In this document: one piece after another, positions 2,663 through 47,143 of the stretch
How positions within the stretch are numbered: the stretch's first letter is position 1
Layout of the letters: every line of letters begins with the position of its first letter
Source of the DNA: Deltaproteobacteria bacterium
GTDB taxonomy: Bacteria; Desulfobacterota; Syntrophobacteria; BM002
NCBI GenBank assembly: GCA_019309045.1
Contig: JAFDGZ010000032.1
Location: 1 to 57,536, forward strand
Direction: 5' to 3'
DNA: 57,536 nucleotides
The notes under the pieces: model-generated
What the model saw: only the letters and a program-made list of their open reading frames with translations
What the model was told of the DNA's origin: nothing
Databases searched by the model: none
Position numbers and translations under genes: made by a program

Positions 2663-4006
2663 TCAATGAGATGGTGTTTCAAGCATGTTTTCCTCGGCAA
2701 CCCCGCCATTTTCCACCCGAATGAGTCTGGTGGGAGCTGTCACTACCTTGAGTTTGTCGATTTCTGCCAGGGCGAGCCTGACATCCTTTTCTCGAGCCTC
2801 ATGGGTCATCATCACCAGGGGTACGGAACCTTTTGCCCGGCGTCCCTTTTGAATAACTGAGGCAATACTGATGTCGTGTTTGCCAAGAATCCCGGCTATC
2901 TTGGACAGGACCCCCGGCCGATCGACTGCTGAGAAGCGAAAGTAATAATTGATGACAAGCTCCTCCATGGGCTTGAGGACTCGAGGCTGCGCCGTGTTGT
3001 TATCACAGCTCAGTGGAGGCAGCCGCACAGTGCCGCCAGCGAGTAAACTGCGGCTGACGTCCACAAGATCACTCACCACAGCACTGCCAGTGGGCATCAT
3101 TCCTGCACCGAGGCCATAGAGCATTATGTCGCCTACCGCATCTCCTGATATGTGGACGGCATTATAAACTCCATCCACTTTGGCGAGCATGTGTTCACAG
3201 GGAAGCATGGTGGGATGAACCCGCACCTCCACCCTGCCGTCGTCACAGCGAGAAATGGCCAGGAGCTTGATCTGATAGCCAAAATCACCGGCAAACTGTA
3301 TGTCGAGGGGTTCAATTTGACTGATGCCCTCGATGTACACTTCCCGGAAGTCCACTTCGCAACAGTAAGCGAGCGAGCTCAGAATTGCAATTTTGTGAGC
3401 CGCATCAATACCTTCGACGTCAAGGGTCGGGTCTGCCTCGGCAAAACCGTGTGCCTTGGCTTCATCGAGTGCTTCGCTGAATGTTGTGCCGGCTCGGCTC
3501 ATGCGGGTGAGTATATAGTTGACCGTGCCATTGAGAATGCCGTAAATGCGGTTGATCCGATTGGCTACCAGGCCTTCCCGAACAGATCGTATGAGCGGAA
3601 TGCCGCCCCCGACTGCTGCCTCAAAAGCCAGGGTTACCCCCTGTGCTCTCGCTACTGCGAACAGCTCGCTGCCATGAATAGCAAGTAGCGCCTTGTTCGC
3701 AGTAACCACATGCTTGCCCCGTTTCATGGCTTCAATGAGAAAGGTTCTCGCAGGCTCCATGCCGCCGATCAATTCCACCACTATCTGGATGCTGTCATCT
3801 GTGAAGATGTCTTCCACCCTGGTGGAGAGAACCTCAGCCGGCAGATTGACCGGGCGAGGCCGTTCTACGTCAATGTCAACCACTCTCTTGAGGTGCAGGA
3901 ACGCTCCCACCCTCTCCGCCAGTACTTCCCTGTTTTCCTGAAGGATCTTGGCAAGACCACAGCCAACTGTTCCCCAGCCAATCAAACCTACCTGAATCTC
4001 CTTCAT
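2663..4006 (-). CDS. hom: Homoserine dehydrogenase with C-terminal ACT domain
   Basis: NAD(P)-dependent reduction of aspartate semialdehyde to homoserine in the threonine/methionine branch. The 447-residue form starts MKEIQVGLIGWGTVG: the Rossmann GxGxxG is at residues 9-14, VVTANKALLA carries the conserved Asn-Lys, and AFEAAVGGGIPLIRSV plus the NGTVNYIL block mark the catalytic domain. From about residue 352 an ACT domain (FSAVDRPGVLSKIAGIL) predicts feedback control, usually by threonine. An in-frame TTG six codons earlier is less likely than this ATG. It is downstream of alaC after a 339-bp gap and 82 bp upstream of apgM. Confidence 0.95.
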   Translation of the reverse strand: MKEIQVGLIGWGTVGCGLAKILQENREVLAERVGAFLHLKRVVDIDVERPRPVNLPAEVLSTRVEDIFTDDSIQIVVELIGGMEPARTFLIEAMKRGKHVVTANKALLAIHGSELFAVARAQGVTLAFEAAVGGGIPLIRSVREGLVANRINRIYGILNGTVNYILTRMSRAGTTFSEALDEAKAHGFAEADPTLDVEGIDAAHKIAILSSLAYCCEVDFREVYIEGISQIEPLDIQFAGDFGYQIKLLAISRCDDGRVEVRVHPTMLPCEHMLAKVDGVYNAVHISGDAVGDIMLYGLGAGMMPTGSAVVSDLVDVSRSLLAGGTVRLPPLSCDNNTAQPRVLKPMEELVINYYFRFSAVDRPGVLSKIAGILGKHDISIASVIQKGRRAKGSVPLVMMTHEAREKDVRLALAEIDKLKVVTAPTRLIRVENGGVAEENMLETPSH

Positions 4007-42124: not shown

Positions 42125-43057
42125 TTATAAGTAACCGGACTCCATGCCTTGAATCAGGGCGGTCAGCACCTCATTGACCGGTGAAGCCATACCTTGGCAG
42201 GCTGCTATGCGTACCACGGCACCGTTGATCTGATCGATTTCAGTCTTTTTCTGCCGTCTTACATCCTGTAGCATGGAAGAAATATTGCCGGCGGTGGAGC
42301 GGCATATGGCCCGGACCCTCTCGATCTCCTCCGGCAAATTCAGAATGATGCCGCAACCACGTGCCACCTGGACAGCTTCCGCTACTGCACCATCCATAAC
42401 TTTCCGGCATGCAGGAATCTTGAGGAGTTCGCCATTCGGCATCCCCAGAATGGCGCTAAGGGCGTTAATAGCCACATTTAGCACCAGCTTACGCCACAAA
42501 ATGGATTGGATATCATCAACCACTTGAGCCGCCAAACCTGCCCCGTTCAAAGTAGCCACCAGATTCCGGAGTTTAGACCTAGCCTTCAGATCTGAGCTGG
42601 CTCCACCCACCCCCCCGAGCCATATCTCCCCGTAGCCGGCATGACGCACCTGCCCTACCCTAAGCAAGGTGGCACCATGGGAGGTAACTCCGGCAAGAAT
42701 CCGATCGCTATCGAAAAATTCACCAAGCGTCTCAATATTGCCCAGGCCATTTTGTAAAGTCAGGAGGTGGCTCTCAGGAGCAATGGTGTCCTTCAGCCTA
42801 GCAACGGCAGCTACAGTATCACAGGCCTTGACGCAAAGGATCAGTACCTCTGCCGATCCGATTTCGGTAGGATCCGCAGTAACCGTAATTGGGGTATGGA
42901 ATCTCCCTCTTGCTCCATCAACAGCAATTCCTCTGTCCTCAAGCAGAGCGGCCCGTTCGGGCCGATGATCTAACAGGTAGACCTCTTCTCCAGCCCTGGC
43001 CAGATAAGCTGCGACTAAACATCCGATAGCTCCCGGTCCGATTACTGTAATAGTCAT
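42125..43057 (-). CDS. panE: Ketopantoate reductase family protein (PanE/ApbA)
   Basis: A 310-residue NADPH-dependent reductase; ketopantoate to pantoate is the canonical step toward CoA. The N-terminus MTITVIGPGAIGCLVAAYLARAGEEV holds the GxGxxG Rossmann motif, VLILCVKACDT the conserved Lys of the catalytic region, and LWRKLVLNVAINALSAILGMPNG the C-terminal domain with the catalytic Lys/Asn. It is the last gene of the hxlB-hps/rraA-panE run, 22 bp after the fusion gene. Several paralogues of this family act on other 2-oxo acids, so the substrate is not certain. Confidence 0.88.
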   Translation of the reverse strand: MTITVIGPGAIGCLVAAYLARAGEEVYLLDHRPERAALLEDRGIAVDGARGRFHTPITVTADPTEIGSAEVLILCVKACDTVAAVARLKDTIAPESHLLTLQNGLGNIETLGEFFDSDRILAGVTSHGATLLRVGQVRHAGYGEIWLGGVGGASSDLKARSKLRNLVATLNGAGLAAQVVDDIQSILWRKLVLNVAINALSAILGMPNGELLKIPACRKVMDGAVAEAVQVARGCGIILNLPEEIERVRAICRSTAGNISSMLQDVRRQKKTEIDQINGAVVRIAACQGMASPVNEVLTALIQGMESGYL

Positions 43058-43079: not shown

Positions 43080-44366
43080 TTATTTCTTTTCCCAGCGCAA
43101 CAATTCCGTTACCTTGCTCAAGGTGCTCCCCTCTTTAATCTCTTCCCGGATGCGATTTTCCTTCTCAAGCACGTCCATGCCCCGGTTAGCGTACTCCACC
43201 GCTATGGCCCGCGGCAGCACAACCACTCCATCTCCATCTCCCAGCAGCCAATCACCCGTCTCCACACGCATATCGCCAATCGTCACCGGCACACCAATCT
43301 CGCCGAACCCTTTTGGCTCACCGGCATTGGGCACAACCAACCTGCTAAAGGCCGGAAATTTCATGTCGACAATCTCGTCACTGTCCCGTAAGGCGCCGTC
43401 GATGACTACCCCAGCCAAGCTCTTTTGTATAGCCGAATGAGTGGCCAGTTCGCCCCATATGGCAGGACCCACCCCGCCAGCATCTATAACAATCACGTCT
43501 CCAGGCTCGGCCACGTCGATAGCCTGAACGGGTTTGGCCCAATCGCCTGGATAGGTTCTCACAGTGATCGCCCGCCCAACCATGCGGATGCCAGGAAAAA
43601 GCGGGCGAATTCCATGCACAACTCCACCCCGATGGAGGGCGTCTGACAGATTAGCTGTCGAGACAAGTTCCAGGATTTCCCGGATCTCAGGCTCGCATTT
43701 CCTCTTAAACAGGGTAGTGCTAATGCTCATGCCTGTGTCAAGCGCTCGGCGAATATCGCTGGCCGCCAGCTCAGGGTTGAGTGCCTTGCTGATAGCGCCA
43801 CCGACAATAACAATACTGGCTCCTGCCGCTACTGCCTCAGCAGCGGTTTCAGAATTTATACCACCAGCCACTCCCACCGGGATGGTCAATGTCCGACTCA
43901 CCTGGCGTAAGATCGCAAAGGGATCCTTCCCCTCCATCTGTTCGTCAACAGCACAATGGACAGTCACATAATCGGCGCCAAGTTTCTCGACAAACTGAGC
44001 CCTCATCAGCACATCTTTTACCGCTATCATATCGACTACGATCTTAGCGCCATAGTTTTTACCCGCTTGGATGCACTCCCGGATGGTGGCATCGCTGGCT
44101 GCGCCGAGCACATCGACAATTTCCGCCCCTGCCTTTGCTGCGGCCTCAACTTCCACCCTCCCAGTGTCCATAATCTTCATATCCGCTACGATCGTCCTTT
44201 GAGGAAAGAGCCGGTGTAGCTCACGGACAGCATTGAGTCCTTCGCTCTTGATAAGAGGAGTTCCAGCTTCAAGCCAGTCAACACCACCGGCGATCCCCGC
44301 TTGCGCATTTTTTAGCGCTCGTTGCAAATCAACAAAGTCCAGTGCTAGCTGTAAAATCGGCTTCAT
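43080..44366 (-). CDS. hps-rraA: Fusion of 3-hexulose-6-phosphate synthase and an RraA-like aldolase
   Basis: Residues 1-210 are HPS, an orotidine-decarboxylase-fold enzyme that condenses formaldehyde with ribulose 5-phosphate (and reverses it): PILQLALDFVDL, IVADMKIMDTGR (metal Asp), VHCAVDEQM, and GVAGGINSETAAEAVAAGA. Residues 220-428 are RraA-like: NLSDALHRGG, VIDAGG, WGELATHSA, VIDGALRDSDEI (Arg-Asp pair) and GDGDGVVVLP. The RraA-like part keeps residues of the HMG/CHA aldolases rather than only the RNase E inhibitor. Such fusions are known mainly from archaea. It lies between hxlB and panE. Confidence 0.9.
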   Translation of the reverse strand: MKPILQLALDFVDLQRALKNAQAGIAGGVDWLEAGTPLIKSEGLNAVRELHRLFPQRTIVADMKIMDTGRVEVEAAAKAGAEIVDVLGAASDATIRECIQAGKNYGAKIVVDMIAVKDVLMRAQFVEKLGADYVTVHCAVDEQMEGKDPFAILRQVSRTLTIPVGVAGGINSETAAEAVAAGASIVIVGGAISKALNPELAASDIRRALDTGMSISTTLFKRKCEPEIREILELVSTANLSDALHRGGVVHGIRPLFPGIRMVGRAITVRTYPGDWAKPVQAIDVAEPGDVIVIDAGGVGPAIWGELATHSAIQKSLAGVVIDGALRDSDEIVDMKFPAFSRLVVPNAGEPKGFGEIGVPVTIGDMRVETGDWLLGDGDGVVVLPRAIAVEYANRGMDVLEKENRIREEIKEGSTLSKVTELLRWEKK

Positions 44367-44425: not shown

Positions 44426-45025
44426 CTACTCGATAACCGCGTGCAGCTGTGAGACGTCACCAATCGCTTCTACCCTTTGCTGACAAATAACAACAACAAC
44501 AGCCTCCAAGAATATAAAAGCAGCCTGTTCAAAGAGGGAGCCGGCCAGTTGTAGAGAACCTGGTTCGCAATCACGGCATAGCTTAGTCGTACCTGGCAGA
44601 CAAATGCTATGGTCTACAAGCGCAGCGATTCTTCCGTTCATATTGCCCAGGATGCCAAAGGTCATAGCTGATCGCCTTTTAGCGATCTGCACCGCCTCAA
44701 AGGTGGAGGGGGTTTCGCCAGAGCCGCTCAGGACCATGAGTAGGTCCCCTTTGCCAATAGCAGGGGTAATAGTTTCGCCGCAGAAGTATACCCGGTAGCC
44801 CAAATGCATTAAACGCATACAAAAACAGCGGAGTACAAAGCCCGATCTCCCCTGAGCTGAGAAAAAAATAGCATGGGCCTTGTCGATCCTTTGGATAAAA
44901 TTCACCACGGCATCTTCACGAAGGCTTTGCAGCAAATGCCGATTCTCCCCTAAAATGCGGTCGATTTTTTCCTGGATTTGGAGTTTTTCCTGTCTTACAC
45001 CAGTCCTTGGTTCAAGTCGCTGCAT
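44426..45025 (-). CDS. hxlB: 6-phospho-3-hexuloisomerase (SIS domain)
   Basis: About 199 residues. The SIS-fold isomerase partners HPS, converting hexulose 6-phosphate to fructose 6-phosphate. Motifs: FFSAQGRSGFVLRCFCMRLMHLGYRV (sugar-binding loop, about 54-79), MVLSGSGETPSTFEAVQIAKR, and GSLFEQAAFIFLEAVVVVICQ. It is the first gene of the run leading to the HPS-RraA fusion (59 bp gap), and its upstream region carries the promoter and structured RNA at 45196-45365. Roles: formaldehyde fixation or ribose 5-phosphate supply by the reverse reaction. Confidence 0.9.
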   Translation of the reverse strand: MQRLEPRTGVRQEKLQIQEKIDRILGENRHLLQSLREDAVVNFIQRIDKAHAIFFSAQGRSGFVLRCFCMRLMHLGYRVYFCGETITPAIGKGDLLMVLSGSGETPSTFEAVQIAKRRSAMTFGILGNMNGRIAALVDHSICLPGTTKLCRDCEPGSLQLAGSLFEQAAFIFLEAVVVVICQQRVEAIGDVSQLHAVIE

Positions 45026-45195: not shown

Positions 45196-45229
45196 AAATA
45201 AAAGCCCTCTCGACCAAGCCAAGAGGGCT
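45196..45229 (-). terminator. Intrinsic terminator upstream of hxlB
   Basis: On the minus strand AGCCCTCT (45222-45229), 11-nt loop, AGAGGGCT (45203-45210), then TTTTATTT. An 8-bp GC-rich stem directly followed by a T run is a textbook intrinsic terminator, yet it lies about 170 nt before the hxlB start rather than after a gene. Confidence 0.8.
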
Positions 45230-45330
45230 GTCTCAGGATCTTCTTAGTGGAAAAAGCCTTCCCGTCTCAGTCCAGCACCATGGATCCAAGCGGTCTGACT
45301 CCCCAAAATGGGCAGTCTTATTCTTACAAC
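45196..45330 (-). ncRNA. Small RNA or attenuating leader upstream of hxlB
   Basis: About 135 nt lie between a good promoter (45337-45365) and an intrinsic terminator (45196-45229), with no frame that looks like protein. A hairpin GACTCCCC/GGGCAGTC with an AAAAT loop (45297-45317) opens the transcript, and CAGTCC/GGTCTG (about 45269-45296) can pair around a GGATCC-containing loop. Because read-through would continue into hxlB, it may be a regulatory leader; if termination is complete it is a stand-alone small RNA. No known riboswitch class was recognised. Confidence 0.6.
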
Positions 45331-45336
45331 ACTTTT

Positions 45337-45365
45337 TTAATAGTATAGTCAGCAAGCTTTGTCAA
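45337..45365 (-). promoter_or_regulatory. Sigma70-like promoter for the hxlB-upstream RNA
   Basis: On the minus strand TTGACA (45360-45365), 17-bp spacer, TATTAA (45337-45342). The surrounding sequence is AT-rich. Transcription would start near 45330. Confidence 0.7.
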
Positions 45366-45640: not shown

Positions 45641-45686
45641 ATAGGGGTAGGGGTGGCGCAAACCAATGTGCCATCCTTACCCCTAT
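45641..45686. repeat. Long near-perfect hairpin in the hxlB-methyltransferase gap
   Basis: The 800-bp gap 45026-45827 has no clear gene. Besides the small RNA unit it contains this inverted repeat: ATAGGGGTAGGGGTGGCGCA (45641-45660), AACCAA loop, and a right arm (45667-45686) complementary at 17 of 20 positions. No T tract follows on either strand, so it is not a classical terminator; a REP-like or MITE-like element is possible. Confidence 0.6.
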
Positions 45687-45827: not shown

Positions 45828-46514
45828 TTATTCACTTTTGCGCTTGATGGCGTAGAGGGTGAAATTGTAGACTTCGTCTCCTGAGCGCATCTGCCGCTCT
45901 ATCTTTTTAAACTTGAAGCGCTCCGTCAACAGATGGAAAAAATTAGAGGCGGGCAGGCTGGTGCTCTTGACCAGGAAAATGGTGCCGCCCGGCTTCAGGG
46001 CCCTGTCGAGAAAGGCGATCAGAGACTGGTAGGTGGGGCGATGGTAGATAACCTCGGAGCCCACGATCCAATCATACAGGGGTGCTGCCGGTTCGTCTCG
46101 CCAGTCCACTTTTACCACCGGCACATGAGCCAGATCATTCAGCAGCGCATTGGCCCGAGCAAAAAGAAGGATCTTTTCATCGTAGTCAGACAGGGTAATC
46201 TCATGACCACAGGCAGCAGCGAACAGACCACTCACTCCCATGCCGGCACCAATTTCCAGAATGCGCCGGCCAGGCACTACCGTCTGGGCTGTAAGATAGG
46301 CTGCCATGAAAATGCTCGCCTCCCATATCTTGCCCCAGAACGGCAGCTCCATGAGATCAGGATCAGCGGTTGTCAACTCTTTTACTATCAGTTCATCGAG
46401 TCCTTTCACCTGGAGAAATCGTAAAGTCCGGCCGGACACAGTAATAGGCACTGTTTCCGTCCGGTAGCTGCTCTCGATTTCCTCGACAATTTGTTCCCAA
46501 GTCTTGTCTTCCAC
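45828..46514 (-). CDS. Class I SAM-dependent methyltransferase, METTL21/NNMT-like
   Basis: About 228 residues from a GTG at 46514 with GGGGGA 6 nt upstream; the longer frame to 46679 adds 55 unconvincing residues. ILEIGAGMGVSGLFAAACGHEITLSDYD is motif I/post I of the Rossmann SAM site, and WIVGSEVIYHRPTYQSLIAFLDRALKPGGTIFLV covers motifs IV and V. The E-I-Y-H segment resembles protein-lysine methyltransferases of the METTL21 group. No operon partner; the substrate is unknown. Confidence 0.82.
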   Translation of the reverse strand: MEDKTWEQIVEEIESSYRTETVPITVSGRTLRFLQVKGLDELIVKELTTADPDLMELPFWGKIWEASIFMAAYLTAQTVVPGRRILEIGAGMGVSGLFAAACGHEITLSDYDEKILLFARANALLNDLAHVPVVKVDWRDEPAAPLYDWIVGSEVIYHRPTYQSLIAFLDRALKPGGTIFLVKSTSLPASNFFHLLTERFKFKKIERQMRSGDEVYNFTLYAIKRKSE

Positions 46515-47143
46515 AAGAGATCCCCCTGAATTGATCTTTGGAATCGACGGTGTACTTGCCTTTGTCCAGCCTACCCTATCATGAATTGCCCTGTTTTGGG
46601 GACTTTCCCCACCGTTTTCAAAAAAACCTCGCAGAGCAGGACAACTTGGCTGAAAGTATACAGCATCGAACAGCTCCAAACTACAAACTCATTATCCATC
46701 TATTGCACCGAATGACTTGAGCTCTCTGAATCGAGCCGATCTACATCCACAAATACAGCCTGTAACGAATGTCTTTTGATGCCGATAAATTTTCTAGCCT
46801 TTCTACCTGCTTTTCTCTAGGATATGAGGAGAGAATCTGAACTGAACAAATAGCATATATTGCTTGATGGCAAAATGAATGTGCACCCCTTCTCGCCGCA
46901 CGTTCGGCAGTCGCAAACCTGCAAGTTCCGTCTGCGGCCAGTATCACAGTGGCGCCAGGGCACAATTGCTTCTCGAAATCGATATCAACGCATGGCAAGG
47001 CAGGCTGAAGCCTTCGGCTACCAATTCGTTGGCCATCCCTGCAATCCTCTGGCACGCCTTGTTAGCCGATACTAGTTATCAGAGTGCACTTTCATTTTGC
47101 TGCCATCGAGCAATATTCAAGAGACACGGGGGGAAAGCATACC
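46515..47143. other. Non-coding gap with a second REP-like element
   Basis: These 629 bp between divergent genes contain no convincing frame. GGCAGGCTGAAGCCTTCGGC (46999-47018) followed by TACC matches the palindromic REP-like unit at 13148, differing mainly in the loop and right arm. Confidence 0.5.

Follow-up and report, generated by a model that had tools for sequence, protein, structure and literature searches.

A predicted single-stem pan RNA leader before an hxlB-hps/rraA-panE operon and a candidate substitute for PanB in Desulfobacterota

The leader unit and the hxlB operon

The window, as the whole 57,536-nt stretch of DNA analyzed here is called, carries on its minus strand a unit of promoter, RNA and terminator that can be read directly from the sequence and that has the same orientation as hxlB, whose ATG at 45025 is located ~170 nt downstream of the unit (Table 1). 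The predicted transcript runs from ~45330 to 45196 on the minus strand and is ~135 nt long. An earlier, sequence-only reading of this locus had described a ~135-nt unit 170 nt before hxlB in the same orientation, and its coordinates agree with those given here; no strand was given in that reading, and all of the features are on the minus strand. The promoter it had named (TTGACA-17-TATTAA) was borne out on this strand and is conserved in the leaders of the window's family, most of which have an A/T-rich, TAT-like box at the -10 position. A generic promoter scan did not list this promoter because TATTAA fails the last-T rule of the scan, and the promoter call therefore rests on conservation.

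Of the two or more hairpins proposed within the RNA, two were located and differed in their conservation, with that at 45293-45262 forming a conserved core and that at 45317-45297 being variable. The intrinsic terminator is also present, with a stem (45229-45203) of 12 bp rather than the 8 bp initially assigned, a 3-nt loop, and TTTTATTT thereafter. Folding of the minus strand yielded -50.8 kcal/mol (z = -3.1 against shuffles), and the fold of the plus strand was unremarkable (z = -1.1). The conservation beside hxlB on which the sequence-only reading had made its proposal depend was found, as promoter, core and terminator are kept in 8 genomes of the window's family. Additionally, a 46-nt near-perfect inverted repeat with a 20-bp stem (fold z -6.3) lies at 45641-45686, between the leader and a methyltransferase gene (45828-46679); it occurs once in the window and is possibly a two-way terminator or the relic of a mobile repeat.

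Table 1. Features of the leader and of the operon behind it, in window coordinates
Feature	Position	Strand	Evidence or remark
-35 box TTGACA	45360..45365	-	Read directly; invariant in 8 family leaders
-10 box TATTAA, 17-nt spacer	45337..45342	-	Read directly
Upstream hairpin GACUGCCCAUUUUGGGGAGUC	45297..45317	-	Variable; not a second pan stem
Pan RNA stem CCGCUUGGAUCC...GGACUGAGACGG, two bulged A's	45262..45293	-	R1 58 bits; RF01749 24.5 bits; covariation
Purine-rich tail GAAGGC, conserved	45256..45261	-	Overlaps the Shine-Dalgarno sequence in other families
Proposed antiterminator, 5' strand CUGAGACGGGAAGGC	45256..45270	-	Pan stem 3' arm and tail
Proposed antiterminator, 3' strand GCCCUCUUGGCUUGG	45214..45228	-	Terminator 5' arm and loop
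Intrinsic terminator, 12-bp stem and T-run	45196..45229	-	
hxlB, 6-phospho-3-hexuloisomerase-like SIS protein	44426..45025	-	TIGR03127 162 bits, cut-off 160
Hps-RraA fusion, proposed PanB substitute	43080..44366	-	NF005442, TIGR03128, PF03737, PF00215
panE, ketopantoate reductase	42125..43057	-	TIGR00745 290 bits, cut-off 141

The gene names hxlB, hps/rraA and panE were confirmed by profile matches (TIGR03127, TIGR03128 with PF03737, and TIGR00745, respectively). The second gene encodes a fusion of an Hps domain (residues 4-204; TIGR03128, 221 bits) with an RraA-like aldolase domain (residues 237-383; PF03737, 154 bits). It aligns over its full length, with both domains, to positions 2-429 of NF005442 at 583 bits, slightly under the cut-off of 593. 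The protein thus shares its architecture with NF005442/PRK07028, named "bifunctional hexulose-6-phosphate synthase/ribonuclease regulator", but the "ribonuclease regulator" part of that name is unsupported for the fusion. Both the Hps motif D62-x-K64-x-x-D67 and the pair R327-D328 are invariant in 32 fusions, and the latter aligns with R123-D124 of 3NOJ. Among the RraA-like proteins are class II aldolases for which an arginine is essential (PMC5065237). As with the HMG/CHA aldolase (3NOJ; PMC5065237), the second domain belongs by sequence to the RraA-like fold family and has the catalytic Arg123-Asp124 as R327-D328; it differs in being fused to Hps and in the acceptor and donor proposed for it below.

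Assignment of the core to the pan motif

At curated thresholds, Rfam gave zero matches in the window. The best sub-threshold match of the core was RF01749, the pan motif, at 24.5 bits against a cut-off of 36.2, which is why annotation missed it. In the RF01749 alignment all 12 stem pairs and both conserved bulged A's are present in the window. The other weak Rfam matches, to PyrR and microRNA families, were at chance level. Pan motif RNAs occur in the leaders of pantothenate operons (panB, panC and aspartate decarboxylase), and most, though not all, of the described copies are tandem; they were suggested to be protein-binding motifs (Weinberg et al. 2010; PMC2864571). The window copy is a single stem and not tandem. 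A second pan stem further upstream was considered and found to be unsupported, the upstream hairpin being without the motif.

In BLAST searches with the leader, genomes of the same family matched the unit in large part or in full (70-78% identity), and seven places matched over the core alone (31-42 nt). These core-only matches precede panB (L011, L012), panC (L014), panD (L013, L015, L016) and another hxlB operon (L010). A single-stem model, R1, was built from 20 cores and scored the window core at 58 bits (E 1.7e-12) with no other match within the window. The two models are tied together by locus L138, a clade relative with the same core, where the R1 site also exceeds the RF01749 threshold (41.1 bits). 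Only one of eight tested Desulfobacterota pan loci passed the RF01749 threshold, since that model extends over two hairpins and misses most single-stem copies; many further pan RNAs would be gained with a model of the single stem.

Across 98 related genomes, R1 produced 71 matches in 58 genomes, located upstream of panC (33), panB (14), panD (11) and hps/rraA (10). The other three comprise two hxlB leaders, each on a broken contig, and one match without explanation, so that 70 of 71 precede panC, panB, panD or hxlB/hps-rraA and 58 precede panB, panC or panD. The operon behind the window copy holds panE, a pantothenate gene, and not panB, panC or panD. The genome of the window has two pan RNA copies, one being the hxlB leader and the other located ~160 nt before panD.

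The covariation expected of a structured RNA was also observed in homologues. Among 60 distinct sequences, 98.7% of the stem cells were paired and 51 cells were double-changed, none of 500 shuffles was as good, and sliding the stem partner abolished the signal; this alignment was fitted to the structure, and an independently aligned set of 20 cores gave the same result. Altogether, the core of the unit is almost certainly a single-stem pan RNA. It shares with RF01749 the stem, the two conserved bulged A's, the conserved purine tail and the leader position at pantothenate genes. Unlike most RF01749 copies it is single-stem and under the Rfam cut-off, and unlike those described it precedes hxlB-hps/rraA-panE, a new gene context for the pan RNA, and is joined to a terminator with a possible antiterminator.

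Of 33 fusion genomes, 26 have the pan RNA ahead of the fusion operon (f1, 8/8; g17, 2/2; f7, 2/3; f12, 11/11; f56, 3/5; f23, 0/4). This distribution and the covariation make it very probable that the unit is a cis-regulatory leader, which the sequence-only reading had proposed as an unrecognised riboswitch or attenuator, and the class to which it belongs is the already described RF01749 rather than a new one. At the f23 loci (L070, L150, L152, L153; L131 1273-3387) the hxlB-hps/rraA pair is without the pan RNA and, where read, stands directly behind the gene for a 704-aa repeat protein. In G056 the pan core before hxlB has decayed (L060, ~3440-3470), reading GGACUCCGG instead of GGACUGAGACGG, and the core at panC is retained.

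These locations also bear on the signal to which the leader responds. The sequence-only reading had suggested the sensing of formaldehyde or of a pentose or hexulose phosphate, by which the leader would control a formaldehyde pathway of the RuMP type, and the presence of HxlB and Hps in the operon, together with the terminator in the leader, is in keeping with that proposal. However, the same RNA precedes panC, panB and panD in dozens of genomes that have neither hxlB nor the fusion, and also panD of the window's own genome, and these three genes give no cause for a formaldehyde signal, which makes such sensing very unlikely. As pan motif copies elsewhere precede panB, panC and panD, a pantothenate-related signal is very likely, in place of formaldehyde or a sugar phosphate. 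The sequence-only reading had seen panE in the operon and had not drawn its link to pantothenate, which is the link that explains the locus.

Alternative pairings in the leader

The 3' arm of the pan stem and its tail are complementary enough to the terminator's 5' arm and loop to pair with them as a proposed antiterminator (Table 1). Its register was checked in the window's family, where 13 pairs are possible in one register in all 8 leaders, and the pairing would exclude both the pan stem and the terminator. The changes across these leaders are one-sided and wobble-compatible only. Duplex energies range from -12.5 to -17.4 kcal/mol, values equaled by 1.4-10% of shuffled partners, and the window is the weakest case. 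As a phylum-wide feature the antiterminator was rejected: beyond the window's family it is not retained, fitting poorly in L010, and in f12, f56 and g17 the core adjoins the Shine-Dalgarno sequence instead.

As a leader that bears a terminator, the unit very probably regulates the hxlB operon in cis, and attenuation in the form drawn here is somewhat favored. We infer the direction of the switch as follows. When pantothenate or CoA is sufficient, an effector, either a metabolite or a protein, would hold the pan stem; the stem would retain its own 3' arm, the terminator would form and transcription would stop after ~135 nt. When the supply is short, the 3' arm and the purine tail would instead pair with the 5' arm of the terminator, and the resulting antiterminator would allow transcription of hxlB-hps/rraA-panE. 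The pan RNA would thereby gain a concrete attenuation model in one clade.

In f12, f56 and g17 the core lies directly on the Shine-Dalgarno sequence of hxlB or hps/rraA, which suggests translational control by the pan core in these groups, judging by its placement. Control of access to the purine tail would be the theme common to the different families. This arrangement also bears on whether the unit could be a small RNA in its own right that simply lies upstream of hxlB, as the sequence-only reading had allowed and as its own promoter and strong terminator could indicate. Such a small RNA is highly improbable, given that the position and orientation of the core before pantothenate genes are kept across the phylum, that in other families the core adjoins the ribosome-binding site and is followed at once by the gene, and that a short transcript is expected from any attenuator.

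The Hps-RraA fusion and the distribution of PanB

PanB is the standard enzyme of ketopantoate synthesis, with which the dedicated route to vitamin B5 and coenzyme A begins, and uses methylene-tetrahydrofolate. PanB (PF02548) was not found in the genome of the window (96.9% complete), although in an assembly of 211 contigs a single absence carries less certainty than the pattern seen over many genomes. PanB is missing from 12 of 13 genomes of the window's family and present in most other relatives. Among the 98 relatives, 14 carry the fusion and none of these 14 has PanB (Fisher p 1.4e-10). In an even draw of 395 genomes from the phylum, all 25 fusion genomes were without PanB and 342 of the 370 others had it (p 3.7e-25). 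Because related genomes are not independent, the count was also made by family in the phylum draw: all five fusion families were without PanB compared with one of ~104 others (p 5e-8), the family count being approximate and the fusion families possibly related to each other.

Further evidence comes from the separate branching of some of the fusions and from the genes retained with them. The g17 fusions are ~50% identical to the others and form a separate branch, and both of these deeply separate branches are without PanB and with the pan RNA. In g17 two fusion genomes are without PanB and nine other genomes have it, and here the pan RNA stands directly before hps/rraA, without hxlB or an adjacent panE. 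Over the 33 fusion genomes examined, PanB was found in none, PanC in 32 and a PanE-like reductase in all 33. Methanosarcina acetivorans, the single archaeal control genome, likewise has the fusion and is missing PanB. The fusion itself matches PF00215 and PF03737 and not the PanB profile PF02548. In G002 hxlB appears divided over two sites (L007, L065) that lie far apart on a chromosome assembled as one contig, each ending in N's, which is probably a scaffolding error.

The pan RNA context and the exclusion of PanB point to the fusion as an aldolase in pantoate synthesis, and we consider it probable, from these comparisons of sequences, that the Hps-RraA fusion replaces PanB. In the bypass that we propose, HxlB and Hps would convert fructose 6-phosphate through hexulose 6-phosphate to ribulose 5-phosphate and formaldehyde, the fused RraA-like domain would add the formaldehyde to 2-ketoisovalerate to form ketopantoate, and PanE would reduce this to pantoate for use by PanC. 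HxlB and Hps are known to interconvert fructose 6-phosphate, hexulose 6-phosphate, and ribulose 5-phosphate plus formaldehyde. An aldolase activity for ketopantoate and formaldehyde (EC 4.1.2.12) was reported decades ago, with no gene attached to it. Precedent for the aldol step exists among other 2-oxoacid aldolases, which join formaldehyde to 2-oxoacids and whose products of this kind are reduced by PanE (PMC10127515). The fusion would yield the same product as PanB under the same regulatory RNA; it differs in having no sequence match to PF02548 and in its proposed donor, formaldehyde from a sugar phosphate. The exact chemistry, formaldehyde and ketoisovalerate joined to ketopantoate by the RraA-like domain, has odds a little better than even. 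Two genomes (G034, G038) have the fusion and the pan RNA with no detectable hxlB, and fructose 6-phosphate as the source of formaldehyde does not fit these.

The same operon could be under the control of the pan RNA without the fusion being a substitute for PanB. The fusion would then yield ribulose 5-phosphate or detoxify formaldehyde, consistent with the known role of HxlB and Hps in pentose supply, panE would be the sole gene relevant to pantothenate, and the loss of PanB would reflect uptake of pantoate or ketopantoate or some other enzyme. That PanB can be lost without the fusion is evident from genomes that bear PanC and neither of the two. In the window's family, G004, G005, G007 and G008 are without PanB, fusion and hxlB, and three of the four keep PanC; the nearly complete genomes G217, G142 and G394 also keep PanC with neither PanB nor fusion. 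Among 25 genomes without PanB or fusion newly drawn from the phylum, 10 had PanC, and most PanB-less, fusion-less genomes without PanC look like auxotrophs or incomplete assemblies. In one of the ten (G323), a pan RNA and hxlB run off the contig end at the site where the fusion would be expected.

However, the pan RNA of g17 stands before the fusion by itself, with neither hxlB nor an adjacent panE; the exclusion of PanB is complete in 33 genomes and on two separate fusion branches; and PanC is kept far more often in fusion genomes (24/25) than in the other PanB-less genomes (13/28). A role of the fusion apart from pantoate synthesis is thus rather unlikely, and replacement of PanB by the fusion is the reading that we retain. 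The genomes that bear PanC without PanB or fusion do indicate that other solutions exist; they include G217, G330, G142, G394, G115 and G024, with a pan RNA at panC in G217, G330 and G024, and may have a further PanB substitute or pantoate uptake.

Taken as a whole, the best explanation of the locus is a pan RNA leader switch before an operon that replaces PanB, to which we assign a probability of roughly 0.7 on the basis of sequence comparison. We lean slightly towards its broader form, in which ketopantoate synthesis by the fusion is independent of folate, draws formaldehyde from hexulose phosphate and takes the place of PanB in several lineages of the Desulfobacterota and in methanogens that lack PanB, such as Methanosarcina, having been recruited in the bacteria into the pan RNA regulon. 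The open-licence literature yielded no link between ketopantoate and hexulose, no function for an RraA-Hps fusion and no account of PanB-less methanogens, which is weak evidence of novelty. The apparent replacement of PanB by the fusion operon suggests an undescribed route to vitamin B5 that would draw on a one-carbon unit derived from sugar. The RNA, the operon with panE and the complete swap with PanB nominate for the ketopantoate step one unrelated protein, annotated as a "ribonuclease regulator", and open to direct test the question of how pantoate is produced in bacteria without PanB and perhaps in methanogens.
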